Positions 298-23,847 of a stretch of 64,000 nucleotides of DNA are shown in pieces. The stretch is from Fennellomyces sp. T-0311 (Eukaryota; Mucoromycota; Mucoromycetes; Mucorales; Lichtheimiaceae): the NCBI GenBank assembly GCA_025266875.1, contig JALLLT010000030.1, forward strand, positions 310,001 through 374,000, given 5' to 3'. Made by a program: the position numbers and the translations under genes. Under the pieces are notes generated by a model, which saw only the letters and a program-made list of their open reading frames with translations, was not told the DNA's origin and searched no databases. How positions within the stretch are numbered: the first letter of the stretch is position 1; every line of letters begins with the position of its first letter.

Positions 298-892
298 TTA
301 TGTGTTTTCCGTCTTGTTATGCGCTTGGTGCTCTTGCTGCTCGCGATTCGCTATGCGTGTCTGGTTCAAATTAACATGGTAATAATTTACGTTATACGTG
401 ATTGTTGTCGGATATCTTGCTCCGTCGGGGTATTTAACAGCGACAGTATGGTGGTCTTTGTCACCATCTACCACGACCCAACCACCGGCTGGAAGTGTGA
501 CAGAAAAGCGAGTGATCTCGTGCCCATCATTTATACGGGTGATCTGTACATCAAGTAGTATATTAGTAGCTTCCAATATCGTAGTAACTATTAAGCATAC
601 ATGGAGTCGAACGCTATCCATACGGTTCTTAAAAAGATTACAATCAATGTTAGTGTAGTGACAGCATTCCTTTTCGCCAGGAGAGATATCTTTTTTGAAG
701 GCACTGTAATTATACGAGTAAGTTGAAATATAACCACTTTTTTAACGAATATAGCGCATACCGGCTTTTTAAAGTGGTATATTGTTGAGCTCTTATAATA
801 GTGTTGTCACTGTGCTTATTATAGACACAGTAGCTGTATGTGTAGTATGGCTGGATAGAAAGAGTAAATACCAGAAGAAATAAAAAACGCAT
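298..892 (-). CDS. CVYN-family small secreted protein, copy 1
   Basis: Three exons (892-762, 703-601, 543-298) give 159 residues, phases 2 and 0, GT-AG borders. Residues 1-20 are a signal peptide starting MRFLFLL. Exon 1 carries YCVYNKHSDNT, exon 2 SPGEKECCHY and DCN, exon 3 FSVTLPAGGW and DGDKDHHTVAVKYPDG. Four cysteines (one in YCVYN, the CC pair, one in DCN) suggest two disulfides in a secreted protein. After the conserved module the protein runs on about 30 residues into a Gln/His/Asn-rich tail ending in NKTENT, longer than most copies. An ATG four codons upstream (904) is possible, but all intact copies align from MRF or MHF. A TATA-like element lies near 950. The family's function is unknown to me; secretion is inferred from the signal peptide. 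Confidence 0.8.
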
Positions 893-1043
893 GGTAGTAT
901 TCATGGTATATAGGGCTACACTACCTTTGTACACAGCTAGCAGACTACTTATATTGCTTGATTTAAGCTTACCAATGCAATTCATTATAACTTTGTGGAG
1001 ACGATTTTGTTATTTTCTTTATCTACGACGCATAAGTTAAATG

Positions 1044-1356
1044 AGATAAAGAAATTAAGGTTTGAGGAGGCTTCCTGAAGTTTTTGGTGTGGTTATGTGT
1101 GTGTGTGGACGAAGTAATTCGTGAGACTCTTTATAGGAGAGATTTATTCCGGGAAAGAGAGAGAGAAACACAAATTGGAAATAGACTATTCTTACGCTAC
1201 CGCATGTTACACCAGATACAACTCATTGGTCTCCCGATACCACTGGATACGACACTTCCTGAATCATTCAATGGAAGGCATCTTGAAACGTGCACTTCAA
1301 TGGATTCCTTTTATAGACAAAATCCGAGGATATGCACTATTCAGATGGCTTGCTAG
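1044..1356. promoter_or_regulatory. conserved upstream block of copy 1
   Basis: The stretch upstream of copy 1 contains GATAAAGAAATTA at 1044-1056 and, further out, CTTTTATAGACAAAATCCG followed by ATGCACTATTC around 1310-1343. The same words recur upstream of copies 5, 6 and 8, usually closer together. The GATAA core resembles a fungal GATA-factor site, but that reading is inference. Nothing else was recognised between 893 and 1947. Confidence 0.45.
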
Positions 1357-1947
1357 ATATACCTTAACAAAATGAAAAGTACAGCAATATATCCATAAAC
1401 TTAATAAGCAGCATTATTGTGCATTGAAAATTATTCAGATACGTATCGATAAGGTTTTCGTATCTACACTTGACAGTCGCAAGGATATACATATACATAT
1501 ATATTTTATTATCCCCAGGTGCCGACGATGTAGCTTAAAGGTTTTGGAATTAATATTTACTGGCTCCACTTGTCTTAAGAATAGGGCATACTGATATTCT
1601 ATAAGCGGCTAATTAGGTCCTTTCCGATACCATTATCTAATGGCGACAAAAAAGCAGAAAGTAACCGTGTATACACCACTCTATATTCTGTACCCTGTGT
1701 TAAACTCGTTTCTATTCTACGTAATATATATGCAAGTAATTAAAGCCAAATGTAAAGCTGTCATATTTCGGGGCGTCTAACTCGCTGTAATTGACTTTTT
1801 CCATTTAAAAGGATCTTCAGTGACTAACGCTTCCTGCTTTAACGGTTTCGGACTTATTTGCACTGGGTACATTGGTTCTTCAAGACTCCTTGAGAGCGTT
1901 TGGTTAAATGGGCATGAAACTTTAGGCCATCTTGAATTATTGTGTCG

Positions 1948-2443
1948 TCATATATCCTTCCATCCCCCCCCCCATTTAACTGCTACAGTGCGGTGCATCC
2001 TATCACCATCTCCTACTACCCAGCCACCAGCTGGAAGCGTAACCAAAAAGCTGGTAACCTGCTGCCCATGGTACCTGCGACTGATCTATGTACGTATCAA
2101 TAAACACACTGGCATGTTTTCAATATCAGAGTAGCTAGAGCAACAGACATGAAGAGTGATAATATGATTTGGGCTCCCTTGACGATTGTAGTCTCTGTGG
2201 CTGTAATGACAGCACTCCTTGCCACCACATGGTATCCTTTTGATAAAAGCGCTGTGCTTTAGAGTAAATCAGTATATGCAAAGATATTTTTGCATAAAGA
2301 AAACGATCTTACCGGGATGCTAGAGTAATATATGGTTGAGCTTCTATAACTGTCTCGTCAGTATGTTTGTTGTAGACACAGAAACAGTATGCGTGGAACG
2401 GCAGGATAGAGATGGTAAGCATTAAAAGCGACACTAACTGACT
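1948..2443 (-). pseudogene. CVYN-family copy 2, broken
   Basis: All three exon blocks can be traced: exon 1 about 2443-2312 (HAYCFCVYNKHTDETVIEAQ), exon 2 about 2251-2150 (GGKECCHYSHRDYN) and exon 3 from 2085. Four faults are visible. The start codon is gone: the position aligning with MRF reads Ser-Gln-Leu. The DCN cysteine is Tyr. The donor after exon 2 is GTCTGT instead of GTAAGT or GTATGT. In exon 3 a run of ten C on the plus strand (1964-1973) sits where other copies encode PDG, and the frame after it stops at 1948-1950, whereas the next frame continues with a plausible tail. The homopolymer could be a sequencing error, but the lost start and cysteine argue for a real pseudogene. Confidence 0.7.
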
Positions 2444-3104
2444 ATTAAAAGCTAGAATTTGAGGAGATTTCCTGGGCCACTAAACAAATCGTATATTACA
2501 GCGCCCACTACTATAACCCTTAATAGTCAAGAGCAATAATATTCATACGGATATTACTAGAACACATTGAGAATAACCATGAGCGGCTCAAATTGCTATG
2601 GTGTGAAAAGAACTATATGGGCATTCAAACTGAGGTGATATATCTTTAACAAGAATTTATAATATCATTACAGCAAGTCAGTATTCTGCATATTATTGAT
2701 GTAGACAGCGCTTCCATAACTTTAATCGACAATTGATGCAGAGGAGATCAACAAATATTGCTTGTATTTGGCAACAGATTATTAATTACCAAAAAAAATT
2801 ACAGACGGGATGACTTGCCAATGTGCTCTGTCATATTGTTGTCTTGTGATGGTAGCAATATCGAAAGGACATAGGTGAAGTTAGATTCGAATATTATGTG
2901 CCTTACATCCTATGTACGTATAGCCATGACTTATCAATCGTTCTCACTAATGGGTCTTTCGCGTACTCAAATTAGACTTGGGTTACTTGAAGAATTTTTA
3001 GTGCTTGACACATACATCCACTTTAAAGCCTTTTTTTTGACTTTATTTCGCATTTGTAAATTTTGCATTTAAAGCTTCGCCATACGCGTCTACCTAGATT
3101 CGAT
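2444..3104. other. spacer between copies 2 and 3
   Basis: No gene recognised. Short reading frames here have no family resemblance. The part next to copy 2 (TTTGAGGAGATTTCCTGGG near 2458-2476) resembles the upstream block of copy 1 (TTTGAGGAGGCTTCCTG near 1060-1077). Confidence 0.5.
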
Positions 3105-3629
3105 TCAAACAGACATGTCATTATACTCCTGCGTTTCTAGCGGATAATCCGTTCCGTTTGCATATTTCACGAGCACAGAATACACGTCTTTGGTACCAGG
3201 TACCTCGGCCCAGCCACCAGCAGGAAGTGTTACAGACAAGTGAGAGATCCACGCCCCATTACTAAGGCGACTGATCTGCTCGTCGACAATAATTCAGAAG
3301 TCTTTCTAACAACAGAATATCAAAGGCATACCCAAAGTTTGGTTGGCTCCTCCTGAGATTTCAGTCGACTGCAGTCAAATGTAGTGTAAGGACAGCATTC
3401 CTTTTCACCAGGACTTATCTGTTTCTTGAAAGGTCTGTATTTGATTGTATGAGTGTACCGTGATGATACAGATTTTTTTTTACTGGGATAGCATATACCT
3501 ATTAGGGGATCCGGAGTACTGTTCAGCTTCTATAATTGTGTCATCGGTGTGCTTGTTGTAGATACAGTAACTGTATGTATAGTACGGCAGAGCACAGATA
3601 GTAAAGGTTAAAAGAAATATAAACCGCAT
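3105..3629 (-). CDS. CVYN-family small secreted protein, copy 3
   Basis: Three exons (3629-3499, 3434-3332, 3275-3105) add to 405 nt, giving 134 residues with phases 2 and 0. The signal peptide MRFIFLLTFTICALPYYTYS is followed by YCIYNKHTDDT, then PFKKQISPGEKECCPYTT and a DCS variant of DCN, then LSVTLPAGGW. Exon 3 departs from most copies: the DGD...HTVAVK segment reads VPGTKDVYSVLVKYANG, so the acidic DGD triplet is lost while length is kept. All four cysteines are present. TATAAATA lies 59 bp upstream of the ATG. Unknown function; secreted by inference from the signal peptide. Confidence 0.82.
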
Positions 3630-3687
3630 GATGTTGTCACTGAGACTGTGCGTATTGGTTCTGTAACCATGATGAATGCTGAATAAA

Positions 3688-3695
3688 TATTTATA
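3688..3695 (-). promoter_or_regulatory. TATA box of copy 3
   Basis: TATAAATA on the coding strand, 59 bp upstream of the copy 3 ATG. The same octamer lies at the same distance upstream of copies 6 (8538-8545) and 11 (18636-18643) and 37 bp upstream of copy 8 (11599-11606). Close variants lie 35-60 bp upstream of the other copies. Confidence 0.6.
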
Positions 3696-4641
3696 CTTTT
3701 TGCATCCCCATCAATATAATATATTCACTATTTATAGCTCACATTGGGAAAAAAGATTTAGAAAAACTTCAATTTATTAAAAGTAATCATCAATGATGCT
3801 AAAGTACTTCAATCGTATTTGGAAATATGTGTAGTATCGCATCGAAAAATTCGTCTATAGCTTTCATGCGAGATCATGGGTGAGATGGTGCACAATAGAT
3901 GATGATGATCCATAATTTACCGCAGGCACCATTGGTTTGGCCACTTTGACAACTCTGTAGACACACATTCTCAAAATCTATTTTTGCAATAAGTTATAGT
4001 GTCGTCCGTATCGTCATTAAGAAAATATATAGAGTGTATAAATACAATCGGACGGCAAACATCAAATTTTGCAGTAACGCACCAAAAATTCAAGGAAGCA
4101 CATACATAGCTGAAAAAGTGTCGTGCACCTCGCTCAAAACGGTGACATTAACTTTCAAAAGCTGGTATTGCCGCTTCAACGTTCCGTACATCAGGTTCAA
4201 AAATCTGTGCAAGCTCTAATTAGGTACGACCACATCAAAAAATCCAAACACGTTCTCGACAATTTAGTCCGGGATTGTAGTAGGGAATAAGATATTAAGA
4301 GCGTAATAACTAGTAAAGATTAAGGTGACATTGTTGTACATGATTAAAAGCTGCAAGATATAATGTTGCCTTTTTATTACAGTAGGTCCTGTAAGCGAAA
4401 TGAATGTTTGTGAAGTGAACCCCCACAGTGCGCCAATCAGAAGGAAAAAGTACTGTATATGTCGCGTTTAAACTCAAAAACTATCATTTCCACTACAAGG
4501 GGCATTTGCTTGTCGAAATCTGATTCCGTGGCATGTGTACATACTCAAAAAACCCTTTATTGCTTGCTACTATCCATTTGACTTTCCATCTTAACACTTG
4601 GGCCACTCTTCAAGATTCCTTGTACGTGTTATCAAATTATG
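3696..4641. other. spacer, no gene recognised
   Basis: AT-rich spacer between copies 3 and 4. The short open frame at 4034-4219 has no signal peptide, no family motif and no recognisable homologue. Confidence 0.5.
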
Positions 4642-5176
4642 CTAAATGAAGGGTGTGCCATGCTCAATTATTATTAGATACTCTGTTCCGTCTGCATATT
4701 TAACCGCCACAGTGTGGTTCTTTTTTTCGCTATCTACAACAACAATCCAACCACCGGCAAGAAGTGTAACAGAAAAGCGAATAATCATTTTGTCAATATA
4801 GTAACGGGTGATCTATATACCACATAGGGGCATATTAGCAACTTTCCACCGACATGAAAGTAGCTAGTAGGACATACCCAGAGTTTGAGTTGTTCATGAT
4901 TAGTCATATATGGATTGCAGTCACGGTCGATATAAGGGCAGGGTTCCTTTCCAGCAGGGTACACCTATTTGTGAAAAGCATTGTACTCATAACATCAGTA
5001 AGTTGTTATAGACAGATTTTTTTACAGTGATGTAGAACCTACATGGCTGGTGGCGCAGGAGGATATTGTCAAACATCTGAAAGGGTATCATCGCTATGCT
5101 TGTTATAACCACAGTAGCAACATGCGTAATATGCTAAGACAGCAACTGTAGGAGCTGAAAGAGATAAAAAGCGCAT
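4642..5176 (-). pseudogene. CVYN-family copy 4, broken by two nonsense codons
   Basis: The gene is easily traced from ATG at 5174-5176 (MRFLSLSAPTVAVLAYYACC) through YCGYNKHSDDT, exon 2 (YPAGKEPCPY, RDCNP) and exon 3 (4812-4642, FSVTLLAGGW, HTVAVKYADGTEY) to a normal TAG. Two in-frame stops interrupt it: TGA in exon 1 just before the conserved QY pair, where other copies have Arg, and TAG at 4965-4967 where other copies read FHK-x-I-Y-P. One cysteine of the CC pair is Pro. Splice sites are still good (GTATGT donor after exon 2), so decay is recent and point-mutational. Confidence 0.8.
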
Positions 5177-5283
5177 GGTATTTTTAGTTAATTAGCTATA
5201 AAGCAAGACTTCTGATACCACCGTCCAGCGGCGAGACGAGTATACAATTATGAGTAGTCGGAGATTTACGAAACTGAGGTGGA

Positions 5284-5718
5284 ACAAACGATACAAAAAA
5301 TAAAAGAGATCAAGAAAAGTACCTTTAAAGTTTCAGGTATGCTTTATTGGATACAGCGTTCTATATTTTTATATTTTTCTGCGTATTGAATTAGTAATGG
5401 CAGTTTAAATAGTTCTTCGTCTTCAGAAGTGCCTGGATGGATAGATGACGTATATGATCCTTTTCCTTGTTCTGATCATGCGGATCTTAGGATGTCTTTG
5501 ACAGCCATCCTGCAGTGTAATTCCTGCATTACTATATTAGAGTCAAATAAATGTCCTGTTGAATTTATCTCATTCGTTCATACGGCGTAATCCTTAAGCC
5601 GTGTAGACAAACTACTATGTAAGTATATTTCGCAATGATGTTGGACCGATACGTGCTATCGGGCAGGAAATATCTTCTATTATTGTCTTCAATGGTTGTT
5701 ACACCACAGAAACTATAT
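5284..5718. repeat. 435-bp dispersed repeat, copy R1
   Basis: This segment is clearly alignable over nearly its whole length with 9597-10033. Shared words include TTCTGATCATGCGGATCT, CATTCGTTCATACGG and GGAAATATCTTCT. No terminal inverted repeats or target duplications are obvious. Just beyond its right end (5718 to about 5800, minus strand) are degenerate words matching exon 1 of copy 7, so R1 looks like a relic of a second copy-7-like gene (exon 1 plus long intron 1) whose exons 2-3 are gone. Confidence 0.75.
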
Positions 5719-5890
5719 TGTATTCTGAAATGCAAAAGATTTATATAGATAGCAGACAGTATGTGTATACGTAATTTTCCTTTTTTTAAACGTTTATTCT
5801 GCACTTTGGTCTTAATTTTACCTTTGACATTGTTGCTCTTCAAAGTTCACTGTACGCATTTTAGTTCGAGTTGGCTATGTATATATACGT

Positions 5891-6425
5891 TTATACACCA
5901 TATTCAATTTGTGTGCCATCGTAGTTCCTTCCGTCTGCAAATTTAACCGCAATAGTATGATGCTTTTTGTCACCATCTACTGCCAGCCATCCGCCAACCG
6001 GAACTGTAACTGCAAGCCTTGTGATTTGTGTTCGTTTTTTTCCATTCAGGCGCTCAACCTAGCCAGCAATTTCAATATCCAGGAACTTGCTTTTATTGCC
6101 AGGGCGGACATGTTTTATGACTTACGTGGAGCTTAATGATATCATCTCTTTCCCTACCTAGACTGCAGTCATATGCGGTATAGGGGCAACATTCTTTTCC
6201 ACCAGGATATATAAACTTGTGGAAAGGACTATGAATGTAGCATGATTAGTAGTTCGTGATACATACTTTTTTTTTTACAAGAAAAAATAAAACCTACTGA
6301 GAGACGCCTGCATATTGCCTCACAACTAGAATTGTATCGTCGCTATGCTTGTTATAGACGCAGTAACTGTATACGTAGCATGGCCAGACGGCGAGAGTAA
6401 AGGTTAAAAGGGATAAGAAGCGCAT
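5891..6425 (-). CDS. CVYN-family small secreted protein, copy 5
   Basis: Exons 6425-6298, 6228-6126 and 6058-5891 total 399 nt, giving 132 residues. Signal peptide MRFLSLLTFTLAVWPCYVYS, then YCVYNKHSDDTILVVRQY, then PFHKFIYPGGKECCPYTAYD. Exon 3 has a lysine/arginine-rich lead (NGKKRTQITR) before LAVTVPVGGW and DGDKKHHTIAVKFADG. The exon 1 donor must be GTAGGT inside the word CAGTAGGT; using the later GT would leave an in-frame TAG, and only the earlier one gives phase 2. Exon 3 is most like that of copy 6, so these two are probably sister duplicates. A TATA-like CTATAAAA lies about 35 bp upstream. Function unknown. Confidence 0.82.
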
Positions 6426-6560
6426 AATAATTGCTGGTAACGGAGTTAAAAGTGTATGCTTTTATAGTCATTGGAAAGATTACTTTTACTGCCTTTCTCC
6501 ACACCATAAAATTCATTATAACATGTGAGAGTTTTGCCGTTTATCTGAACCACAAAATGC

Positions 6561-6636
6561 GATAAAGAAATTAAATACTTAGGCTTCTTCGGTATCTTCC
6601 GATATGCACTATTATCCTTTTTATAGGTAAAGTCCG
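6561..6636. promoter_or_regulatory. conserved upstream block of copy 5
   Basis: GATAAAGAAATTA at 6561-6573, ATGCACTATTATC near 6604 and CTTTTTATAGGTAAA near 6618-6632, about 140-210 bp upstream of the copy 5 ATG. The same three words in the same order occur upstream of copy 6 (8592-8678) and, more diverged, copies 8 (11686-11750) and 11 (18692-18760). Confidence 0.5.
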
Positions 6637-7951
6637 GTAACGTGTATACAGAAATTGATAGATACCAGGATTTGTAATATTCAAAGTGAAATAAATTAAT
6701 ATTTGGCAACACTCAAACCTTGTGTAATACGAATATGGAAGTATACATACATGTCCGCTGAAAAGATCATTCCGTACTAGTTAATATTGCGATCACTTTA
6801 AACGATACAACTCTATAGTATTTATCGGCTTGCTTTACACCGTGTACTTCTGACAACTTCATTTTGTTTCTTCTGATTGTACTTCGTTACTACAGTAGTA
6901 ATATGTACATTGCATACTGTGTCTTGTTGAAAATGAAATGCAAGGCCTCCTGGAAGATACAATCAATATTTGTGTTAAATAGTTCACTTGGCCAACATCC
7001 ACGAACCTCAAAGAGATCCCGTTCAATATAAAGCCACTTAATAAATATCACACGACCATGAAATGCTCTGCAGCCACATTTTTATTAAATCCTTTTCCTG
7101 TTACGTACGTAGGTGCGGAAAACATAAGCGTGCATGAGGTAATCGAGTAATACTGAAACTCTTGCATTGGGTAAAAACGGTAGGAAGTATATGCTCAATA
7201 TGTACGGGCACTTTATAATGAATTTAGACTATAATATTGTAATGAAGTGACATAGAACGGCACCATAGTTTATCCGGATGGTCGCGTGTCACAGTTAAAT
7301 TAACAAACATGCAGACCGATTATTTAGTCAATGGAAACCCAGTAGTGAAATAAACAGACTCTTTCTTCCCACATAACCCTTCGACTCCGTATAGTTGAAG
7401 AAAAGTGGCCGTTTCTTGTTTGTACGTGGTGACTTAAGAGCTCTCACGAACGCTCACGACTGTACCGAATATTAACGACAGCGATGGATTATATAGTTTT
7501 GCACTTGTTGTCTACCGTTCCTGATTACTTTTGTTTCGCTTATAACTCATTGTATATTTATCGCCCAGTAATTGACTGGTATGTTCCCTTTCCCGTCATT
7601 AAGAAGTTTACATCCCCAAACCGATTGCTTAAATGTATCATTGTTAATGGGAGGTAGTGGCGCCTAAAAAGAAATAAACCCTCGCAACAATATGTGAAAA
7701 TTCTATGTATCTATGTAGTAGGGAGTATATGGCTAATAGTTAAAAAAAGTATGTATACAGTTTTCTTTTCTAGAACATAGTTTTTTTTTTGGCTTGTTCG
7801 CGGAAAAAATGGATTTTGGTTTAAATGCGTAAAAGGTTTTGAAGCAACTAATTTGTCATTCACTGTGACAATTTTCGCTTTGTTTTGCCGTTGACACTGC
7901 TACTTTCAAAGCTCACTGTAATTGTTGGTTTTGAGTTGAAGGTTCATATGC
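6637..7951. other. spacer with a faint plus-strand relic
   Basis: No intact gene. At about 7249-7312 the plus strand encodes fragments (DIERHHS, then VYPDGRVSQLN one frame over) resembling the DGD...HHTVAVK.PDG part of exon 3 with a frame change between them. If real this is the only family trace in the opposite orientation. Confidence 0.35.
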
Positions 7952-8479
7952 CTATACACCATAGATGACACGTGCCCCATCGAACGTTCTTCCGTCTGCA
8001 AATTTAACGGCGACAGTGTGGTTTTCTTTGTTACCGTCGACAACAAGCCATCCACCAATAGGTACTGTAACTGCAAGTCCGACGATTTGTCTTCGTGTTG
8101 CTCCATCTATGCGCTTAACCTAGATAATAATTTTAATATCTTAGGGACTTTGTTGCTTTTGCCGTCAGGAACAGCTTTGAACTTACGTGGAGCATAATGA
8201 TGTCGTCTCTACCCATACCTAGATTACAATCACGTGTAGTATAAGGGCAACATTCTTTTCCAGCGGGATATATAGTTTTGTGGAAAGGACTACATATTAT
8301 GATGAGAAGGACATGATACACAATAGATTTTTCTGCAAAAGTAGTACCAACCTAAGGTCCCCTGAATATTGTCTAACCTCTAGAATTGTATTGTCGTAAT
8401 GTTCGTTATAGACACAGTAGCTAAAGACATTGTAAGGTAATACGGCGAGAATAATGGTTAAAATGAATAAGAAATGCAT
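7952..8479 (-). CDS. CVYN-family small secreted protein, copy 6
   Basis: Exons 8479-8352, 8289-8187 and 8119-7952 total 399 nt, giving 132 residues. The start is MHFLFILTIILAVLPYNVFS, a signal peptide, followed by YCVYNEHYDNTILEVRQY. Exon 2 gives FHKTIYPAGKECCPYTTRDC. Exon 3 has RRQIVGLAVTVPIGGW and DGNKENHTVAVKFADG. Four cysteines conserved. Donors are GTTGGT and GTAAGT. It shares with copy 5 the basic insert before LAVTV and the short C-terminus ending YGV. TATAAATA at 8538-8545 and the GATAAAG block at 8592-8678 lie upstream. Function unknown. Confidence 0.83.
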
Positions 8480-8537
8480 TATAAAAGTTATCGGTAGTAA
8501 CGAAGGATATAACGTTGTTTTAATCTTTCGCTCATAC

Positions 8538-8545
8538 TATTTATA
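8538..8545 (-). promoter_or_regulatory. TATA box of copy 6
   Basis: TATAAATA on the coding strand, 59 bp upstream of the copy 6 ATG, the same spacing as in copies 3 and 11. Confidence 0.6.
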
Positions 8546-8591
8546 CTGAATTCATGCAGAATAACGTGCCTTGCATTTCCCTAGCAAAAGC

Positions 8592-8678
8592 GATAAAGAA
8601 AATAAAGTTTGACACTCCCTAAATATGGGAAACTGTCATGCAGTATGCACTATCTGCTTTTTATAGGTAAATACCGAC
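8592..8678. promoter_or_regulatory. conserved upstream block of copy 6
   Basis: CGATAAAGAAAATAAAG, then TATGCACTATCTG, then CTTTTTATAGGTAAATACC, matching the order and spacing of the block upstream of copy 5. No gene was seen between this block and copy 7 at 9181. Confidence 0.5.
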
Positions 8679-9180: not shown

Positions 9181-10144
9181 TCAGCTTGCACCATACTCAA
9201 TGACTGTCTCAGTATAATTCCTTCCATCTGGCCATTTAACAGCTACAGTGTGATTTACTTTGTCACCGTCTACTGCGACCGAGCCACCGGCAGGAAGTGT
9301 AACCGAAAACATAGCGAGCTGTCCGTCATTAATACGGGCAATCTAGAATTACACGGTTAGTTTTCCTTGAGAATTTCCTGTGTGGAAGCGGTTTTACCCA
9401 GAGTTCGACTATGGCAAATCGGTACTTGCTTGGATTACAATCAAATTCAGTATACGGGCAACATTCCTTTCCTTGCCAAAACACCTCCCTAAAAAATGGA
9501 TTGCTACTCGTTTTGATGAGTTTGCAGTAATAAAGATATATTTTCTTATGAAGTGGGCAGAACCTACATACCGAATGATTGGTACGGAGTGAAGTGAATC
9601 AACGGTACAAAGAATGAAACGAGACTTATAAAAGTATCTTTGAAGTTTCGGATATGCTTTATTGAATGCAACGCTCTATGCTTTTACATCTTTTTGTGTA
9701 TTGAATTAGCGATGGCAGTTTAGATAGTGTTTCGTCTTCAGAATTGCCTGAATGAATAGAGGACGTATAGGATCCTTTCTTTCGTTCTGATCATGCGGAT
9801 CTGAGGAAGTCTTTGACATCCGCCATGCAGTGTAATGACCGCATTGCTATATTGGAGTCAATTCCATGTCCTGTTGAGTTTATCCCATTCGTTCATACGG
9901 TGTAATTCTTAATCCGTGTAGACAAGCTACTATGTAAGTACACTTCGTGATGATGTTGAACCGATATGTGTTATCCGATAGGAAATATCTTCTCTTATTA
10001 TCATCTGTGGTTGTTTCACCACACGGACTTATATTGTCGAACACTTAAATATGTATCATCGCTATGTTTGTTATAGACACAGTAGCTATACATATAATAC
10101 TGTAAAGTAGTGGCAGTAAGAAATAAAAGAGATAAGAGGTGCAT
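9181..10144 (-). CDS. CVYN-family small secreted protein, copy 7, with enlarged intron 1
   Basis: Exons 10144-10020, 9503-9398 and 9342-9181 add to 393 nt, giving 130 residues. Signal peptide MHLLSLLFLTATTLQYYMYS, then YCVYNKHSDDTYLSVRQY; exon 2 has FWQGKECCPYTEFDCNP; exon 3 FSVTLPAGGS and DGDKVNHTVAVKWPDGRNY. Phases match the family. Intron 1 is 516 nt instead of about 50-80 because it contains repeat copy R2, which reaches into the end of exon 1 and supplies the GTGAAA donor. The conserved GGW tryptophan is Ser here, as in copy 9. Whether the long intron is spliced correctly cannot be told from sequence; the reading frame is intact on both sides. Confidence 0.68.
9597..10033. repeat. 435-bp dispersed repeat, copy R2, inside intron 1 of copy 7
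   Basis: Second member of the repeat also found at 5284-5718, in the same orientation. It fills most of intron 1 of copy 7; its right end overlaps the last codons of exon 1. No terminal inverted repeats seen. Confidence 0.75.
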
Positions 10145-10998: not shown

Positions 10999-11562
10999 TT
11001 AATATTTGTAGTATGCATCAGGTTTAAGTTTGGGTACTACATTGTAGTAAGCATTATAAAGATTGAGGACTCTTCCATCTGGATCGAATACCGTTATTCC
11101 TGGATGTTGGCTGGTACCACCGACCTCGATCGAGCCTGTTCTAGGACAGTTAACCTGGTAAGTATCGATGTGTCTTTCATTGCTATAAAGCCCGAACTAG
11201 ATAATGGCAATTTATAATACGTACTGTAAGTTTTTAACCTCGCTTATTATAAAACTTACAGTAATCCTGATTACCGCAAGTGGATTTAACGTTGGGTTAC
11301 ACTCCTTTGTGGTATGAAGGGAGCATTTCCTGTTACCAGCGTGTACTCTATTATCGTAAATATTTTATATCTCGATTAGTAAATTTTATGTAAATCATTA
11401 TGCTACATGTGAGTTCGGCATAGCACCTACCAGGTTTGGTCCTGAACGTACGAACTTAATAGATATTGACGTATAATCTTTCTGCTTGTTATAGTTACAA
11501 AAGCTGTATACAAAGCACGGTAAAACAGCAAGGATAACGGTGAAAACGGATGAAAAGCGCAT
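10999..11562 (-). CDS. CVYN-family protein, copy 8, divergent
   Basis: Exons 11562-11427, 11345-11260 and 11196-10999 add to 420 nt, giving 139 residues. It keeps the layout (MRFSSVFTVILAVLPCFVYS, then FCNYNKQ; exon 2 AGNRKCSLHTTKECNP; exon 3 with VFDPDGRVLNLYNAYYNVV) but is the most diverged copy: the CC pair is CS, the HTVAVK core is HPGITV, and an extra cysteine appears in exon 3 (VNCPRTG). Intron 1 is phase 1 rather than 2: only the donor GTGCTA with the second AG of the acceptor word AGAG keeps the frame. TATAAATA lies 37 bp upstream and the GATAAAG block at 11686. It may have taken a different disulfide pattern. Function unknown. Confidence 0.7.
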
Positions 11563-12690: not shown

Positions 12691-13252
12691 CTATCTTTGG
12701 ATCCTCACGGGGTCCCATTTTGCACCATACTCGATGACTAGGTCAGTGTAGTTTGTCCCATCCACCTTTTTGACTGCTACAGTATGGTGCTCCCTGTCAC
12801 CGTCCACTGTTACCGAGCCATCAGCAGGAAGTGTAACAGAAAAGTGGGTCTTCTTTACTTGCTCAAAGACTCGAGCAACCTAGGCAGTACTTTCAATTAA
12901 TTCGAAATTAAAACTTTCAAACGTCAGGACTACTGCGACTCACATAGAGCTTGACTACAGTTTTCGGGTCTTCGATATTCGGATTACAGTTAGGGTCGGT
13001 GTAAGAGCAGCACTCCCTTCCACTGGGAGGATAGACTACTTTGCGGAAAGGACTATATGCTTATATAAATATATGACGGTAACGGTGTCATTTTTTTTTT
13101 AAAAAAAACACCTACTTTACATGCTCAGTGCTAAATTTGTACTGTCGCACGTCCAATTGTGTGACATCGCTGTGTCTGTTATAGACGCAGTAGCTGTATG
13201 CGGAGTACGCCAAGGCGGTGAGGGTAAATGTTAAAAGAGGTAGGAAGCGCAT
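12691..13252 (-). CDS. CVYN-family small secreted protein, copy 9
   Basis: Exons 13252-13116, 13052-12944 and 12879-12691 total 435 nt, giving 144 residues. Signal peptide MRFLPLLTFTLTALAYSAYS, then YCVYNRHSDVTQLDVRQY. Exon 2 reads FRKVVYPPSGRECCSYTDPN with CNP following; exon 3 FSVTLPADGS and DGDREHHTVAVKKVDGTNY, then IEYGAKWDPVRIQR. As in copy 5, exon 1 must use a GTAGGT donor to give phase 2. All four cysteines conserved. The C-terminal YGA segment matches copy 7, suggesting these two are close relatives. A TATAAAAT element lies about 43 bp upstream. Function unknown. Confidence 0.82.
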
Positions 13253-14485: not shown

Positions 14486-15176
14486 CAGTGGCCGCTCGCT
14501 ATAATGATATTTTTTATAACGATATTTCGATATAACGATATAATTTCCAATTCACCGGGGTGGTACGCGGTAAAATATCGTTATATTTATATAGTGATTA
14601 GTTATATCACTCATCCGAAATATCGTTATATCGAGCGAACCAATGATGGTTTGCTTGGCGCTACTTCGCTTTTTCGGGTCAAGTTTCTGGATCGTTTTTC
14701 CAAGAAATTAGATGACCTGAATATCCAATTCATCTTCAACTACCGTCAAATCAAGAAGGTCATTCAAATGTCATTTTCTTTCCATTCTCGAGAAAATCGG
14801 AGTTTCTTCACCATCCTCATGCCCTTATCTTTATGCAACCGCTTCTGCCTTCTGGATTGTCACCTACCTTACAGGTTCGCAATTATCGAAAGTAATAAGG
14901 CAAGATGACATATTAAAAAATAAGTGATAATGATGTATGTCAAAAAAGCATCCATACTTTATTACCGCCCATTTAACTGTTTAATAGACACATTTGCATT
15001 TCTTTGTAAGATTCTAGAGCTTTTTTTTCGTTTTTTTCATGCGCAGATGTATATGAGCTATGGGTAACTATTTAGCCGGATATTTCTTTTCGGAGTGTTA
15101 ATTTTATATAACGATAATTCGCTATAACGATATGACTTTGGCTGCACCGTCATATCGTTATAGCGAGCGGCCACTG
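14486..15176. mobile_element. 691-bp pogo/Tigger-like MITE with TA target duplication
   Basis: The left end starts CAGTGGCCGCTCGCTATA at 14486 and the right end is its inverted complement finishing at 15176; 24 of the first 25 bases match. TA flanks both sides (14484-14485 and 15177-15178), the target duplication of Tc1/mariner elements. The CAGTGG start followed by CTCG.TATAACGA is typical of pogo/Tigger termini. Subterminal regions hold repeated ATAACGATAT/ATATCGTTAT palindromes. No transposase is recognisable inside, so it is non-autonomous and would depend on a transposase elsewhere. An open frame crossing the left end (14414-14908) appears to be chance. Confidence 0.85.
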
Positions 15177-16274
15177 TAATCACTCCAGCGTCAACTCCTA
15201 ATTATGTTTAGATTAGTTCAAAAGTTATGATTTATTTTATAGAAGGCAATTGACCTGCTCCTAAAGGTATTAGGTCCCTAAGTTCAGATTATGTTCTAGG
15301 TTAGTCATTACGTCCTTGACAATTCCATCTTAGGCAAGGTCATGTCGGTCGATCCACAAGTTATAAGTCTTTGAATTTTCAGGTCCAACAGCTTTGACTG
15401 TTTGAAGATGACCATTGGTCCATATCTGTCCGTCGTGAATCATAGTAGCCTGCAGAAATTTTGCCATATACTTGGTTCTGGACGATGGACCCATTATTAA
15501 ACAAGCCAAAAAGCTTTATATCTTTTTTTCAGCTAAATCGCCCTTTTCTAATTCTTTTCTGAACTTGTTCTGTGCATCTGAGTTCATATGACTTTATACA
15601 CAACAGGCTCTAATCACAGTAACCTTGTAACGAGTGAAATCTGCCTGCGCGACCTACGGTTTCCTTTGCTAATTTTTAGTCATATTTTATAATATAATAG
15701 GCATTCATTCATCTTCCTTTTATCTTTTATTTCAACCTCTTTATTAGTGTGTGACCTCTGTGCAAGTATAATAGCCTGGTTTTCCAGAGCGAATAAAGCA
15801 TGAACCAATACTCACTTTATACACCAACATTAGGCAAAGTCTTGATATCTTTTTGATCTGAATAAGTCAAACATGTTAAGATCAATTACTTATGTTAAAT
15901 CATCCAGTCTACACACCTTTTTATAACTCTTAACTCATCTGTGTGAAGTACCGTTCACGATCTAATAAGCCAACGCATCGCCTTTTGGAAACGATCCAAC
16001 GATCGTCTGTTCGACAATGTTCCCGTTGACGTTATTCCACCACTATGTTAAATGACGGGAGAATTTTTGAGTATAATATAAGAGGTGCCGTTGATGTGAT
16101 AGTATGCATATTACGTATTGATCGTAGTAAAATACAGTATAATCAATTTTTATTTTAAATGATAAACTCAAATACAAAAACTAGTATTTCTATAGATGAA
16201 TGGAGGGCAAAATTGGTTTTGGCTGTACGTTTCTAACAAAGCAGGAACTCTAGCAGTCAGTGTCATTGACTGAC
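15177..16274. other. spacer right of the MITE
   Basis: No gene recognised. Three loosely similar stretches (near 14160, 15490 and 15840) share words such as AACAAGCCAAAA and a pattern of CTTT/AACTC motifs, suggesting an old degenerate repeat, but the similarity is weak. Confidence 0.35.
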
Positions 16275-17004
16275 TTAGTAAGTTTCAGTCTTGTTGTGCA
16301 GTTGAGGTAGAGTCGTATTCCGCAAGTTATGTTGAATCTTACTCTCCAATTGATGTTGGGACTTGTTATGCAGCTGCGGTCGGGTGTTGCTCTCCAATTG
16401 ATGCTGAGCCTTGATCTGCGATTGATGTTGTTTGTTTTCGAGATCTGTACGTGTCTTGTTCAGATTTAAATTCCACTTTGCGGCGTACACAATTTTTGTT
16501 TCCTGATAGACCCTTCCGTCCGGCCATTTAACAGCTACAGTGTGATGTTGTAAGTCACCATCTACTATAAGATCGCCAGATGCAGGAAGCGTGACCGAAA
16601 ACTGGCATACTCCCATTCCCTCCGGAGACGCACGCTGGATCTAAATACGTACTTTTAATAAGTATTTTGACAATCTATTAACGTCGGAACAAAAGACATA
16701 CCCAAAGCGTAACCACGGAATTGGGAAGCAAGTATGGGTTGCAGGATTGACTGGTATGGGGGCAGCACGAGTTAGCACCTGCAGCTACCTGCTGATCAAA
16801 AGAGCTATGTATATGCATGAGTAAACTGTGATAAAAAACCGCCTTATATAACATAACTTACCTCCATCTTTCTTTACCACTTCTAGTGTCATATTGATGT
16901 ACGTTTAAAACTGTGTTGTCGCTATGCTTGTTGTAAACACAGTAGCCGTATGCATAATACGGCAAGGTAGTAAGAGTGAATGCTAACAAGGATAAGAAGC
17001 GCAT
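16275..17004 (-). CDS. CVYN-family secreted protein, copy 10, with long repeat tail
   Basis: Exons 17004-16862, 16804-16702 and 16640-16275 total 612 nt, giving 203 residues, the longest copy. Signal peptide MRFLSLLAFTLTTLPYYAYG, then YCVYNKHSDNTVLNVHQY. Exon 2 has the CC pair and SCNP but lost most of the KE.. context (AAGANSCCPHTSQ). Exon 3 has FSVTLPASGD and DGDLQHHTVAVKWPDGRVY. After the module a tail of about 70 residues is rich in Gln, His, Asn and Lys with internal repeats of QHQLES and PQLHNK. The tail resembles a longer version of that in copy 1. Function unknown; the tail could bind polyanions or metal, which is speculation. Confidence 0.8.
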
Positions 17005-18064
17005 GGCGCGGATAGCAAGAGTGTAATTATAGTGCTGTACTTCACAGGTGTACAACGACATTTATATTCCTTTCATCCTCAATGTATTCATTGTCAATTA
17101 TGGAAGTTTTTGTCTTTCATTTTTCACAGACTGTAGAAAACGAATCAAAGAGATCCGGGCCCTAGATACGCACATTCGGTCACCGGATGATATCCAGTAA
17201 TATGAAATACTATAACTTTTTGAATAAAAGCTGAGACAATGAGCACTGTAATCTGTTTAGTAGAAAGCGCGACTTTCTGAAAGTGATACAAAATGAAGGA
17301 GAAACAAATCATATATCAGAAGTGATGTATCCTTTAATGATGATGATAGAATCATTATAAGACTTTAGGCGCGCTATATATATACGTAAGCGCTTCCATA
17401 CCTGAATTTGACATAAAAAAAGCAGAGTACCTTCTAAAAGCACTATACAAGTTGCTGCAACTTTTATTGTAGATTGCAGTAGCCCAGAACAAGTGATATG
17501 TTTTCATACATTTAGAGAGGTGTGTGAAACCATCAAAGTTAGGGCTTCTGCTTTCCTTCTCTCGACGAATAGAGTATACCCGTATTTTCCTTCATTGCAT
17601 AATTAATAGCCCACTGACATTTTAATGACATGAAAGGCCTTATCAAAGAGCGTAGATATTTTTTTATATTTTCATTCGTTTGAGCATTAAGCAGAATATA
17701 TGTACCACTTCGAAACTAGAATCTGTAAAGGAATCATAATGCTACAGTTTATTTTATGAGCGGTAATGGATCTGTTCCTAAAGAAGTTGTAACATACGTG
17801 CTTCATCTGCATTTATTTTAATAAATTTCCAACAAAGCGCTACTACAGCATTTCCAGAAGGAATCTTTGATTCATTGTATTAACTTATACGTTTGTATTA
17901 AAAGAAGTTTTCTGTCGACCAACAGACATCGCCCGTCTACTGCGCCTAAGACTAGCTAGCATTATGCGATTTATAATGAATTTTTGCTTTAGGACTAATG
18001 TCGTCTTTCTGCAAGGTTTTCTGCGCGCGCCTTGTTCAAATTTGGACCCCAATTTGCAACAGCC
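17005..18064. other. spacer, no gene recognised
   Basis: A TATA-like element for copy 10 lies near 17060-17068. The rest shows no family motif or other recognisable gene. Confidence 0.45.
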
Positions 18065-18577
18065 TTAACTGTATTTGTAATAGAACTTCCCATCAGCGCG
18101 ACTAAAATACACACTGTGGTATAGATCGTTTCCCACTATTTCTACCAAGCCATTGTTATGAAGCGTAACTGAAAAGTAGCTAATCTTAAATCCTTCTCTA
18201 TGATTCGCACGCCCGATCGAGATGGTCTCCTATGATAAGTATGCTAGAACTTAACATCAAGTTAACTATGTTATAACTAAAGCTTGGCAATATCATCTCA
18301 GGTCATATTTGTAGTGGAGGACTGATTGGTTTGAAGATAACATGCGCTTTTGAACGAAAATATTGTTTCATTGAAGATGCTATGCATTTTGGAGAGTAAA
18401 TTGTAATAAAAGATTACGAGGTATATAACACCTACTCTAGGCTTTCGCTTTTGTTATCCTTGTGATACTGACGTAGACGTAGGACTGAATCATCGCGAAG
18501 CTTGCTGTAGACAGAATAGCTGTGTGCGTAGTACGGAAAATAGCTAGAGTGAATGCTAACAAAGATAGAAAGCGCAT
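18065..18577 (-). pseudogene. CVYN-family copy 11, broken
   Basis: The signal peptide region starts normally (MRFLSLLAFTLAI) from ATG at 18575-18577, but one base is missing right after it; the following YYAHSYSVYSKLRDDS continues in another frame. The YCVYN cysteine is Ser. Exon 2 has an in-frame TGA at 18298-18300, lacks the KECC context and has a poor donor. Exon 3 (18226-18065) is still open and reads YFSVTLHNNGLVEIVGNDLY with a normal stop. TATAAATA at 18636-18643 and the GATAAAG block at 18692 survive upstream. Confidence 0.75.
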
Positions 18578-19130
18578 AATGCTGATAATGAAAGTGAATC
18601 GGTGGTGTACGTATCCTTCCGTGGAATATCCATGATATTTATATTAATTGCTGTTGCTCGCAGGAGCCGTTGTCTTTCCTCTTGCGCGAAAGATAAAGAA
18701 ATCGAGCTTCGGGGTCTCTGAACAACTTCAGAAACATGCACTCCTATGCCTTTCGAGGGTAAAGAGCGAGATAAGAAAAAGCTACATTTTCATGTTATTG
18801 CACTGCGCCCATTGAAGGCGGAGCTGCCGAGATCATAACATTCGCTACCAACTTTTTATACATACAGACTGGATTTATGCGACGTGTGATAGCAACGGTG
18901 ATATTAAAGTGGCCAGAAAGAGCATTATAGTCGCACGACTTCCTCTGGATTTGCATGACAATAGAAAGAATCCCCTGTAGAATCAATCTGTATACCCTAA
19001 TCCCCACAATACCGCTTTGAACTGTGCGCAGTAGTAGCTGCCGTCAAGCGTAAGCCGAAAGAGCTGCAATTTCAATTTCAGTGCAGTGAAGACTTTCTTA
19101 AGCTGTTTCTTTTCAGCCTTTAATCAAATA
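18578..19130. other. boundary between the array and housekeeping genes
   Basis: Holds the TATA box and upstream block of copy 11 and the 5' flank of SAP18. No further gene recognised. Confidence 0.45.
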
Positions 19131-19847
19131 ATGACCACGACGATCGATCGCGAGAAAGTATGTGATTTACTTCTCTTTCTTTAGCTGATTCAACATTTAT
19201 TGACACAACCAACTACAGGAATGTCCCTTCTTGCTTAGAATCTTCACAAAAAACAATGGTCATCACTTGTAAGTTCTTCGTGTCGGCTGGATTCAATGAA
19301 ACGACGCTAATCCACGAAACAGACTCAACGATTTCACGGTGACCAGCGTACCAACCTCGGATGAGCTTCAATTATATACCTGGTAAACAAGCATTGATTA
19401 TAGGCTGTGCGGATCTAATGGCGTAAATATAGGAGAAATGCCACGTTAGAAGAATTAGGACAACTTATCCAAGAAGTGGTCCCTGAAGCGCAACACCCTG
19501 ACGCGCGTATAGCGTTCCGTCTGATTTATCTTGACAGCCAAAGAGGCGTGTACCGTTCACGAGACTTGGGTCGCGTCATGAATATCAAGCCAACACCGGA
19601 TCAATCAAAGACGTTGGAGGAATGTCAGTTTTTCATCGGCGACTACTTGGACGTAGCTATCTATGTTGGACCACCACCATCACGTGGAATGGGACGACGT
19701 GGCAGTGACTGGGGACGCGATAGACCACGAGACAGACGCGACAATCGATTCAATGCTGGTGGTCGACGGGATAGAGATGGAAGGGACAGGGACGGACGGT
19801 TCCGACGAGACGACCGCGCTTTTGGTGGACGACGTGATCGCTTCTAA
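19131..19847 (+). CDS. SAP18: SAP18-like Sin3/splicing-associated protein
   Basis: Four exons (19131-19157, 19219-19268, 19323-19382, 19433-19847) give 183 residues. The N-terminus TTTIDREKECPFLLRIFTKN and the following VPTSDELQLYTW and IGDYLDVAI are diagnostic of the SAP18 ubiquitin-like fold. In animals SAP18 works in Sin3-HDAC and in ASAP/PSAP complexes at exon junctions; a similar nuclear adaptor role is inferred. The C-terminal 50 residues extend past the usual SAP18 fold as an Arg/Gly/Asp-rich tail (GMGRRGSDWGRDRPRDRRDN and on), typical of RNA-binding RGG-like regions. Introns are 54-61 nt. The Sds3-like gene at 25.9 kb is another Sin3-complex subunit. Confidence 0.88.
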
Positions 19848-20127
19848 CTGCCAGTCATTGGATTTGTTCACAAACGGGGACATTAAGCAAAAAAACATGT
19901 GTAATAAAAGTGTTGTCTTTCACGCCGCACAATCGATGGGATGGTACTCCGTACGTTGCCATGTGCACACTGCTTCATCTGTACCGATGGAAAATGCTTT
20001 GCTGGATAGTTGCTATGATGCACAATCGAAAAGGAGTACTAACGGGAGCCTCGCTGAGCGCGCGGAGAAACAATATTTTGCATTTCGAGTCGAAAAACGA
20101 CACGAGACCCTTTCTTCCTTTGCCAAC

Positions 20128-21667
20128 ATGGATACCGTACAAACCAACCAACAAGCTCAAGCCCAGAATGACTCGGCACACCCTAAAAATGCCGTCGTCA
20201 ATGAGTATATCTCGGACGCCGAAGAGGAAGAGGACGACGACGATGTACAAGTTGACAATGTCGAAGAAGGTAGAATCTACCATACCATTAAAATCTTCTT
20301 GGACATTCTAATCCAACAATGCCACTTTTAGGCCTTTTGGACGATTATCCTGATGACACTGAGGTTTGTACTGGCGCAATCGTCTGTCGTACTTTCTAGC
20401 ACCGGAGGCTTATACGGAAGTGTAGGAAATCGATGCTATCCACAACCGTATCTCAGATATCTCGAAGCTCGGTCTCGAACGGTTCAAGAATCTCGAGGTA
20501 AAGCGTGCAGGATAGATACGGTGCATATGCTCACATTACTGTACAGCGTATCTGTCTGCGCCAGAACTTGATTATAGATATCGAAGGACTGGAGCCGCTG
20601 CGCGAAACGCTCAAGGAATTGGATCTTTATGACAACAAGATATCGCATATCCGTGGCCTCGCAGAGCTGACAAATCTCAGGTGAGACATCCAATCCTGGC
20701 AAACGCATCGTTGTTTCTAAGACAATGCAGGGTACTAGATCTCTCGTTCAACAAGATCAAGCATATCAAGAACGTTGACATGTTGACCAATTTGGAGGAC
20801 ATTTACTTTGTCAGCAACCGCATTTCCAAGATTGAGAACCTGGACAAGCTTGAGCTCATCACCAACTTGGAGCTGGGAGCCAACAAGATCCGAGTAACGT
20901 TATTGGGCAGAGTAAAGTGAATCCCTGCACACTGACATTGAAACCCCTAGGTCATCGAGAACCTGGACAAGCTTGTGCGCTTAAGGCAACTGTGGTTGGG
21001 AAAAAACAAAATTGCTAGACTCGAGGTAATGACTTTCCTGCAGCGCGTGCACTGGTTCTCTAACTCGTGTCGTATCCACCAGAACTTGAGCCCACTCGCC
21101 AACCTTCGTATTCTGAGTATACAGAGCAACCGTCTCACAAAGCTCGAAAACCTGGAGGATCTTCATAATCTGGAAGAGATCTATCTTTCGCACAATGCCA
21201 TTGAAAAGCTTGAGGGTTTGGACAACAATGTGAGTTTCGACAAGGCTGGATCGACCAATGACTGATCCACCTGAAATAGCTCAAGCTGACAACGATCGAT
21301 ATCGCCAACAATCGAATCACCCACATCGAAAACCTGTCCCACCTCAAGAACCTGGAGGAGTTCTGGGTGCGTATTCCAGCATTTCCCGCATGACGTGCAT
21401 TAACGACGGATTCTAGGCAAACAACAACTTGCTTGAAAACCCATGCTATAACGAGTTGTCTGCCGAGTTGGGCAAGCTCGAGAACTTGACGACGGTGTAC
21501 CTCGAAGGAAACCCAATGCAAACGGAGAACCGGGCGACGTACAGAAACAAAGTGCATATGGCCTTGCCACAAGTGAAACAAATTGACGCCACGTGAGTGC
21601 TATAATAAGGAGTCCTCAGGGCCTTTGACTAATCTTTCCGTCTGGTTTTTTTAGATACATACGATAA
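20128..21667 (+). CDS. SDS22: Sds22-like PP1 regulatory subunit, leucine-rich repeats
   Basis: Ten exons: 20128-20269, 20332-20363, 20426-20497, 20547-20680, 20731-20893, 20951-21025, 21083-21229, 21280-21366, 21417-21592, 21655-21667, giving 346 residues with every phase consistent. After an acidic N-terminus (SDAEEEEDDDD) come about eleven 22-residue repeats of the Sds22 type (LDLSFNKIKHIKNVDMLTNL; LEEIYLSHNAIEKLEGLDNN) and the LRR-cap ending in DATYIR. Sds22 binds the catalytic subunit of protein phosphatase 1 and acts in its maturation and in mitosis, mainly in the nucleus. Several introns fall at repeat borders. Its stop lies 6 bp from the stop of the convergent HAD gene. Confidence 0.93.
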
Positions 21668-21673
21668 ACTGTA

Positions 21674-22792
21674 TCACCTTGTTTCGTTTTGTACATTATT
21701 AAAACCGCTCAAGATACGGGGATACAAGTCATGCAGTGTCAGGATAGAGTCGGTAGACTGAGGCTGCGCTGTTGGCACATCCTCATAGGACAACTTGCCT
21801 GAATACCAAAAAAAAATATGAAAAAAACGCCTCCATCCGTCTTTCTCAAGAAATTTACCTCTTTCTAACAATAGCGCGTTCCATCCAGCATTAAGAGCGC
21901 CTGCAATTTTTTTTATTTAGATTCGTGCGTAACGTCAAGTTCCCAGACAAAAACATACGTACCACGATAATCTGCGTGCAAATCGTCTCCAACATGCAAT
22001 GCTTCTTTTGCACAAACTGGTGGGCGCACATTTCGCAAGGCGACATCAAAGATTTCATGTGCAGGCTTTTCGTATCCACATCGGTAGCTAGGCAGCACAA
22101 AATCCAAATGCTCCGTCATCTTTAGGTTTTTCAGAACATCGTCTACATATCAAACAGTTATCACGGTGACAAGCGTATCTTGAAATCAACGTACGCAGAC
22201 GCTCGTCGGAATTACTTATTACCCCCGTTTTAATTCTTTGTCGTTTGAGTTGTTGCAGTGTATCGATGGCATCGGGAAAGGCCGCATAGCCAACGTCCGA
22301 TGAAAAACGTATGTACAGTGAGTTGAATAGTTTGGCAAAATTCGGGTCCAAATCTAGTCTTCATGAGTACTACTTTTATCACAGTATATATTTGATACCA
22401 CACCCTGTTTAGAGACACCCGCAGTGATGAATGTATCGTAGACTAGCTACGAAAGGATTACGTATAAGTCAGTTGACCAACCATCGACGCGATGTGTATA
22501 CCTCTTCCCACCACCGTCTAGGACTCATGCCTTCACGAAAACCGTAAAACGGATGCCGATCCATCTGCTTTTTGAAAATAGGTCCAAATGCCCTTGACAG
22601 CCCTTCTCGAGTTACATGAATCCCTACGTTCGAGGCTTCTGCCATCTACAACGAAATTGCTTTGGCTTCCGCTGACAGCTTTGTCCATCACTGTAATCTT
22701 ACATACTGCGCCGTTGTACTTCCTCGAGGTTTGAATAAGGTGTTATATGCATCGAAGGTAACGAGTTTAATCGCGTTTTGTGCTGGCCCCAT
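21674..22792 (-). CDS. HDHD3-like HAD hydrolase
   Basis: Seven exons (22792-22703, 22645-22502, 22446-22404, 22353-22195, 22142-21963, 21900-21859, 21798-21674) give 260 residues. HAD motif I is present as TFDAYNTLF near residue 13 (the second acidic residue of DxD is replaced by Tyr, as known for HDHD3-type members), motif II as GVISNSDERL, and motifs III/IV as YEKP and HVGDDLHADYRGALNAGW. The cap segment REGLSRAFGPIFKKQM, then MSPRRWWEE, matches the HDHD3/REG-2 subfamily. The replaced DxD residue means phosphatase activity is uncertain. The gene is convergent with SDS22, with a 6-bp gap between stop codons. Confidence 0.85.
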
Positions 22793-23306
22793 GAAAGAAA
22801 AGGATATTGAAACTACTCTTAGAGCGAAATCTTCTTATTCCGAGGTCGTTTATAGAATGGAAAAATCAGCATAATCTATAAACAAACAAGAGAATAAGAT
22901 AGCGCTACCTGCAAAAACAACAAATAAATACAATATAATGAGTATTAGTAGATAAATCTGATCGACACCACATACACAGCATTTTCGGAGAAGTGTCGAT
23001 ACGTTATACTTTTATTTGATGTACGAAACAAATATATAAAGCTATTACTCTAATTCTACTGACTCAATACCCCTTCGTCACCCCAGTACATCTTTTAATG
23101 GTTCAAGTACTTGGAACCGAAAGTGGTTTATTCTGATCTTCTAAGCCAAATGTAGGGCTACGTAGCATTCCTGTTCAATGTCCTTCGCTTGCTAAAGCAG
23201 GGTTAGACTTATACATGCAGCGGAAACCATCGTTTATTTTAAAATTCATGATCTTGTCTGCACTTGCTACTTTTGCTCTTACTCAAAGCTTACTATGCCA
23301 GTTTTT
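22793..23306. other. spacer, no gene recognised
   Basis: 5' flank of the HAD gene and 3' flank of CVYN copy 12. The words TAAGCCAAATGTAGGGCTA near 23141 resemble the 3' flanks of copies 1 and 2 (near 196 and 1741), so the duplicated unit extends past the stop codon. Confidence 0.4.
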
Positions 23307-23847
23307 TTAAAACGGAAAGTTTGGGTCATTGACCACATTTGTCGGATAGTCTGTTCCGTCGTATGCTTTAACCACGACATTGTAATGATCCTTGTCGCCA
23401 TCTATCGTAACCCAACCAGCGCCGGGGACCGTAACAAGGAGACGAGAAAGCTCATTTCCGTTGTTGATACGCTTGATCTAAGTTAATAAATAAATTAGCG
23501 ACCTTTTTTGAAAGTAGTACGTAGGCACAAAAGAGCTACATACCCGAAGTGAGACCTTTTCATTCGGGTTTCCAGACGGAATGCAGTCAGTGGCAGTGTG
23601 AAGACAGCATTCTTTTCCGCCTGGATTTATCGTTTTGTTGAAAGTACTACACATATACTTCAATGAGCGTGTTGTGGCTAAAGATGTTCATTTACAAAGA
23701 TGACACATACGGGTGGCCTGGGATAGCAGGCCCATACTGTATGACATCCATAGAAGTGCCATCGCTATGATTGTTATAGACGCAGTAGCTGTATGCGTAA
23801 TGTGGAAGGATGGAGAGACCGAGAATTACAAGAGATGGGAAGCGCAT
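23307..23847 (-). CDS. CVYN-family small secreted protein, copy 12, outlying
   Basis: Exons 23847-23711, 23646-23544 and 23477-23307 total 411 nt, giving 136 residues. Signal peptide MRFPSLVILGLSILPHYAYS, then YCVYNNHSDGTSMDVIQY; exon 2 FNKTINPGGKECCLHTATD with DCI in place of DCN; exon 3 LLVTVPGAGW and DGDKDHYNVVVKAYDGTDY. Phases and cysteines match the family. It is separated from copy 11 by SAP18, SDS22 and the HAD gene (4.7 kb) yet keeps the same strand and intron layout. Exon 3 is most like that of copy 3. A GATAAATA element lies about 52 bp upstream. Function unknown. Confidence 0.82.

Follow-up and report, generated by a model that had tools for sequence, protein, structure and literature searches.

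A tandem row of small-protein genes

We analyzed a 64,000-nucleotide stretch of the genome of Fennellomyces sp. T-0311 (Mucorales, Lichtheimiaceae; contig JALLLT010000030.1, positions 310,001 to 374,000; hereafter the window), in which positions 298-23847 hold a row of related genes for small, probably secreted proteins. This part of the window was read directly; a direct-repeat search, three-exon models built by hand and an automatic splice search were also used. Direct repeats and direct reading revealed 12 tandem copies, all on the minus strand, as described in a first-pass annotation made from the sequence alone. The exon-1 block of 11 copies formed one repeat family (D1), and that of the twelfth, at 18541-18596, belonged to another (D12). 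The row extends beyond the window: an atypical copy with YCAYS replacing the YCVYN motif lies at 308612-309120 of the same contig (C107).

Seven copies were clean three-exon genes encoding proteins of 132-203 amino acids (aa), with GT-AG introns of 56-69 nucleotides (nt) in phases 2 and then 0; the automatic splice search picked the identical seven copies. They are c1 (298..892; exons 892-762, 703-601 and 543-298; 159 aa), c3 (3105..3629; exons 3629-3499, 3434-3332 and 3275-3105; 134 aa), c5 (5891..6425; exons 6425-6298, 6228-6126 and 6058-5891; 132 aa), c6 (7952..8479; exons 8479-8352, 8289-8187 and 8119-7952; 132 aa), c9 (12691..13252; exons 13252-13116, 13052-12944 and 12879-12691; 144 aa), c10 (16275..17004; exons 17004-16862, 16804-16702 and 16640-16275; 203 aa) and c12 (23307..23847; exons 23847-23711, 23646-23544 and 23477-23307; 136 aa). 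The c9 model is identical, letter for letter, to NCBI protein P0004. Three other NCBI proteins, P0001, P0009 and P0010, correspond to c5, c1 and c10, respectively, but are incomplete or spliced differently; P0001, a partial protein, matches exons 2-3 of c5 except at two junction residues, and P0009 is a fragment. The c10 protein has a polar repetitive tail, whose repeats constitute repeat family D13.

Three copies were dead. In c2 (1921..2442, ends approximate) the usual start region is gone and a run of G in exon 3 breaks the frame; c4 (4642..5176) has an in-frame stop within exon 1; and exon 1 of c11 (18060..18577, 3′ end approximate) is out of frame. Enumeration of GT-AG readings with motif filters gave no open three-exon reading for any of the three. 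Two further copies were doubtful. The exons of c7 (9181..10144) are readable, and the copy is open only if its first intron spans 513 nt and takes in an interspersed repeat. For the diverged c8 (10999..11562, 3′ end approximate), the sole open reading needs a phase-1 first intron and lacks one cysteine of the CC pair; its motif is SFCNYN in place of YC.YN, and it scored 78 bits vs. 187-215 for the seven clean copies. The first-pass annotation had counted nine intact and three dead copies sharing one three-exon plan. The three dead copies stand, and the intact ones divide into seven clear and two doubtful; the shared plan applies to the clean copies, and c7 and c8 have open readings only with unusual introns. 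Chance repeats were ruled out as an explanation of the row by the common gene models, the NCBI match for c9 and the genome-wide models presented below.

The interspersed repeat within c7 (~434 bp; 9590..10023, strand not assigned) occurs near full length at at least 40 genomic places; this count includes the c7 copy, to which the remaining 39 are 96-98% identical (40 of 190 candidates were scored). Another copy, ~80% alike over 300 bases, lies at ~5275-5721 between c5 and c4. The copy in c7 is young and the copy at ~5275-5721 is older. The dead copies and the repeat insertion bear out the earlier proposal of birth and death in tandem. Elsewhere in the window, a pair of TATAACGATATNTCG-like repeats (repeat family D16) was observed at 14509-14557 and 15101-15149, and the reading frames near this pair may be transposon remains. 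Positions 19400-60700 hold genes in the open reading frame list that look by eye like housekeeping genes, and which we take to encode a SAP18-like protein, a leucine-rich repeat (sds22-like) protein, a CHD1-like remodeller, a DEAD-box helicase, a protein kinase A regulatory subunit and glutamate dehydrogenase.

The family in the Fennellomyces genome and constraint on its copies

The 45.6-Mb assembly was searched exon by exon, and spliced modelling was applied to the window and ten other stretches, yielding 28 uninterrupted models on seven contigs: seven each on C107, C68 and C95, three on C144, two on C113, and one each on C118 and C79. Further fragments were present on C95, C107 and C46. Seven NCBI proteins (P0002, P0004, P0005, P0006, P0007, P0008 and P0017) agreed with the models over three exons when their letters were read, three of them having longer N-termini. 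Part of the uniformity among the models reflects the finder itself, which accepted only genes with the YC.YN motif, both the second and the last cysteine of exon 2, and intron phases 2/0.

In all seven intact window copies, the YC.YN strand follows a hydrophobic leader (judged by eye). Four cysteines in the pattern C, CC, C were found in the same seven copies and in all 27 distinct Fennellomyces models; c8 departs from this pattern in its open reading. Across the 27 distinct models, the first strand, the cysteines, the turn glycines and the acidic loops SDDT, DGDK and DGR were most conserved. Variation was greatest in hairpin 5-6, in the tail, in the loop that follows strand 2 and in the segment leading up to strand 5. 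Retention of cysteines and intron phases, as first noted for the row, together with strongly variable loops and tails holds for these models, partly through the design of the finder. In a quick tree, many of whose branches were weak, the window copies did not form one group. At C113:33929-36175 (L039), two inverted family copies ~1.2 kb apart encode identical proteins; from its sequence, this pair is a very recent duplication or conversion.

The ratio of nonsynonymous to synonymous substitution rates (dN/dS) was estimated for the 378 pairs among the 28 models. Twenty-seven pairs with dS ≤1 were usable, and most others were saturated. Whole-core dN/dS was 0.21-0.65 in 26 of the 27, the remaining pair being near-identical. 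Loop dN was higher than strand dN in 26 of 27 rows, with loops defined from predicted strands; it reached or passed loop dS in four rows, every one of which included one of the two identical C113 copies, and loop dS was undefined in one row. The c5/c6 pair had dN 0.21 and dS 0.65, and most pairs among the seven window copies were saturated. Positive selection, which the first-pass annotation had expected to emerge from dN/dS across copies, was not seen in these pairwise values, which have little power given that most pairs are saturated. Because whole-core dN/dS was below 1 while loop dN exceeded strand dN, the sequence comparison speaks for constraint with faster-changing loops rather than for positive selection. 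The same annotation had called birth and death in tandem typical of secreted proteins facing another organism or a changing environment; none of our results points to an opposing organism.

Upstream elements were shared by subsets of the copies. TTTCTTTATC was present in 4 of 28 upstream regions (expected, 0.03 after block shuffles) and in 0 of 168 other window pieces. Its carriers were c1, c5, c6 and the C118 model, in which it lies 122-162 bases before the start codon; it is possibly a shared leader of this subset. TATA-type sites were found in 7 of 28 upstream regions (expected, 2.1) and in 5 of 168 other window pieces. Both elements are subset traits only, and a family-wide shared promoter was rejected.

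Relatives in other fungi and in bacteria

A single window protein used as query retrieved three Fennellomyces proteins. A ten-row Fennellomyces profile, searched against 5.8 billion sequences, gave 15 matches at E ≤0.1; one of these was a Mucor flavus protein (E 6e-9), and four were of bacterial or metagenomic origin (E 4e-7 to 3e-5). A mixed profile of 12 rows gave 112 matches at E ≤1 among 1389 candidates. Fungal matches of the mixed profile included M. circinelloides, M. bainieri, M. mucedo and Helicostylum pulchrum; bacterial records were from Usitatibacter, Desulfuromonadaceae, Smithellaceae, Deltaproteobacteria, Azospirillum and Nostoc. Most matches were metagenome proteins, which were taken to be bacterial. 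Two loci were found on GTDB contigs, one in Desulfuromonadaceae with two neighbouring copies and one in Oscillatoria princeps. The family is rare in prokaryotes: it occurred in at least 4 of 297 and at least 4 of 292 genomes in the phyla of genomes G001 and G002, counts for which few candidates per genome were scored, and in which these two centres are included and one genome, G055, is doubtful.

Separate fungal and bacterial profiles of the mature parts, without signal peptides, were compared by hhalign with 40 column shuffles each. The Fennellomyces profile A8 scored 83, 59 and 92 against bacterial profiles A9, A10 and A3 (pairwise E 7e-14, 7e-10 and 1e-15), vs. shuffled maxima of 20.3, 18.4 and 19.5. 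When the YCVYN strand was removed, the scores were 57, 40 and 75 vs. shuffled maxima of 16.6, 23.6 and 15.1. Because the profile members had been gathered by similarity, the database E-values of the ten-row profile search are safer figures than these pairwise values.

Individual proteins showed the same correspondence. The "Secreted protein" of Usitatibacter palustris (P0014) and PHH91_07315 of Desulfuromonadaceae (P0018) have a leader and a YCVYN strand, as in the fungal copies, and bacterial proteins of this type also resemble the fungal copies in their F..V.PGGK.CC...C block and C-terminal glycine-rich strand pair. Unlike the fungal copies, the exported-type bacterial proteins are intronless, and several have extra cysteines and longer middle insertions. 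Bacterial members were rare and mostly single or paired in the loci examined. Five uncharacterised proteins of Mucor and Helicostylum (P0011, P0031, P0034, P0039 and P0119) have the same core and match the Fennellomyces set by profile with 99.6% probability; however, unlike Fennellomyces, these fungi showed no large expansion among the matches listed.

Genome G055 contains an 11-gene tandem array (L062:4219-10017) of small leader-bearing proteins with an AYAIYNH start and a His-rich PH..HNG.HG block. In plan this array resembles the Fennellomyces row, but we do not put it forward as a bacterial parallel: homology of the mature parts is not supported, the leaderless profile failing to exceed shuffles clearly (scores 19.9, 19.7, 17.9 and 18.5, vs. 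shuffled maxima of 21.2, 18.3, 24.1 and 16.1).

Since the family is spread through the Fennellomyces genome, and bacteria as well as other Mucorales carry related proteins, the sequences indicate that it is no local invention of this fungus. In a quick tree, the split between fungi and bacteria had a support of 11, which settles neither root nor direction. In searches for mobile spread, one bacterial query had no match in plasmids and another had none in phages; of 26 pattern matches in viral contigs, none was confirmed. A more far-reaching history, conceivable though unlikely, would begin with the exchange of a small recognition domain, one that Pfam does not yet name, between bacteria and a forebear of the Mucorales. 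In the fungus the gene would have acquired introns, and in Fennellomyces it would have multiplied into dozens of germline-encoded secreted binders that retain one scaffold and vary in their loops.

Predicted fold and possible role

Structure prediction, proposed in the first-pass annotation, was performed for c9 (P0004) and for a bacterial member. Both were predicted to be confident beta-sandwiches, with predicted local distance difference test (pLDDT) values of 87.8 and 86.2, respectively. The core strand order was the same in the fungal and bacterial models, and the bacterial model was built without fungal rows. The solved beta-sandwiches nearest in arrangement to both models were cholesterol-dependent cytolysin domain 4, transthyretin and the extracellular domain of PepT. 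Sequence searches identified no solved relative: the best E was 0.17 for c1 and 1.1 for A5, and A2 had no match at E ≤10. The main new point of this analysis is that the family, as judged from sequence and modelled structure, spans two domains of life, whose members share a core and a predicted fold.

Membership in a known family was considered and rejected for the libraries scanned. In the module, no Pfam match exceeded the curated cut-off in 68 members or in five window copies; one match, in P0005, was sub-threshold (18.6 bits vs. a cut-off of 27). NCBIfam gave no match above cut-off, and PHROGs no match, for the eight proteins scanned with each. PADLOC gave none for eight of nine proteins, the ninth, P0122, having a weak match in its phosphoesterase region. 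A literature search judged by titles and abstract starts found nothing on the family. The suggestion that this architecture is undescribed holds for the libraries and literature searched, in which no described function was found.

Two fusions bear on function. In P0122 (genome G337, L061:2315-3637), a family module precedes a calcineurin-like phosphoesterase domain (PF00149, 25.6 bits vs. a cut-off of 21.5); the module matches the profile at E 1.4e-8, although its first cysteine and one cysteine of the CC pair are absent. In the metagenomic protein P0111, the module precedes a DM9 repeat (31.1 bits vs. a cut-off of 26.2). This was the only protein with DM9 beside the module; no DM9 match was found in five window copies or 68 members. 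Pfam revealed no enzyme domain in the scanned copies. Companion modules of this type often bind a substrate or surface. The phosphoesterase and DM9 fusions fit an accessory binding role, and because such companions often bind in this way, the family module may be read as an extracellular binding module.

From the results above, we tentatively propose that the family is a birth-and-death set of small secreted proteins in which a hydrophobic leader precedes a single predicted beta-sandwich domain, one that begins with the YCVYN strand and keeps four cysteines (C, CC, C). The proteins would be exported and held by two disulphides, and would serve extracellularly as binding modules without enzymatic activity. 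The conserved strands would form the scaffold, and the variable loops would set the ligand of each copy, whether glycan, protein or small molecule, such that the expanded set may constitute a repertoire of such binders. We assign this reading as a whole a probability of roughly 0.45.

Other functions were weighed against this proposal. Expanded families of small secreted proteins in fungi are likewise small, cysteine-bearing and subject to tandem birth and death; the Fennellomyces family differs from them in having bacterial homologues with a common core and no whole-core dN/dS above 1 in usable pairs. Effectors or antagonists directed against a host, prey or competitor microbe (e.g., antimicrobial proteins), diversifying in an arms race, would account for small, cysteine-bearing, probably secreted proteins in tandem with dead copies among them, and for variable loops, including the four C113-containing rows in which loop dN is at least equal to loop dS. 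However, the low whole-core dN/dS runs counter to such diversification, the bacterial homologues belong to quite different groups, and no PADLOC or PHROG similarity was found apart from the one weak phosphoesterase-region match. We regard an effector role as improbable.

A structural role in the cell wall or at the spore surface, for which the many copies would provide dosage or serve different developmental stages, seems somewhat less probable still. Beta-rich, cysteine-bearing proteins under purifying selection, some with low-complexity tails (c10), are compatible with that role; however, Pfam recognised no wall anchor or repeat domain in the scanned copies, and the bacterial members occur where there is no fungal wall. 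A role as carriers that bind a small ligand, either transthyretin-like or metal-binding, is the least probable of these alternatives.

In regard to significance, what had been a row of hypothetical genes can now be treated as a protein family: its core is definable, its fold is predicted with confidence, its members occur in two domains of life, and the Pfam and NCBIfam models searched do not cover it. The bacterial members, present as one or two copies, lend themselves to gene deletion and protein purification, and so offer a handle on function that the fungal copies alone do not give; further handles are the naturally occurring fusions, one with a phosphoesterase and one with a lectin-type repeat. 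If the variable loops set the ligand, the Fennellomyces paralogues would be a natural set for mapping loop to ligand.

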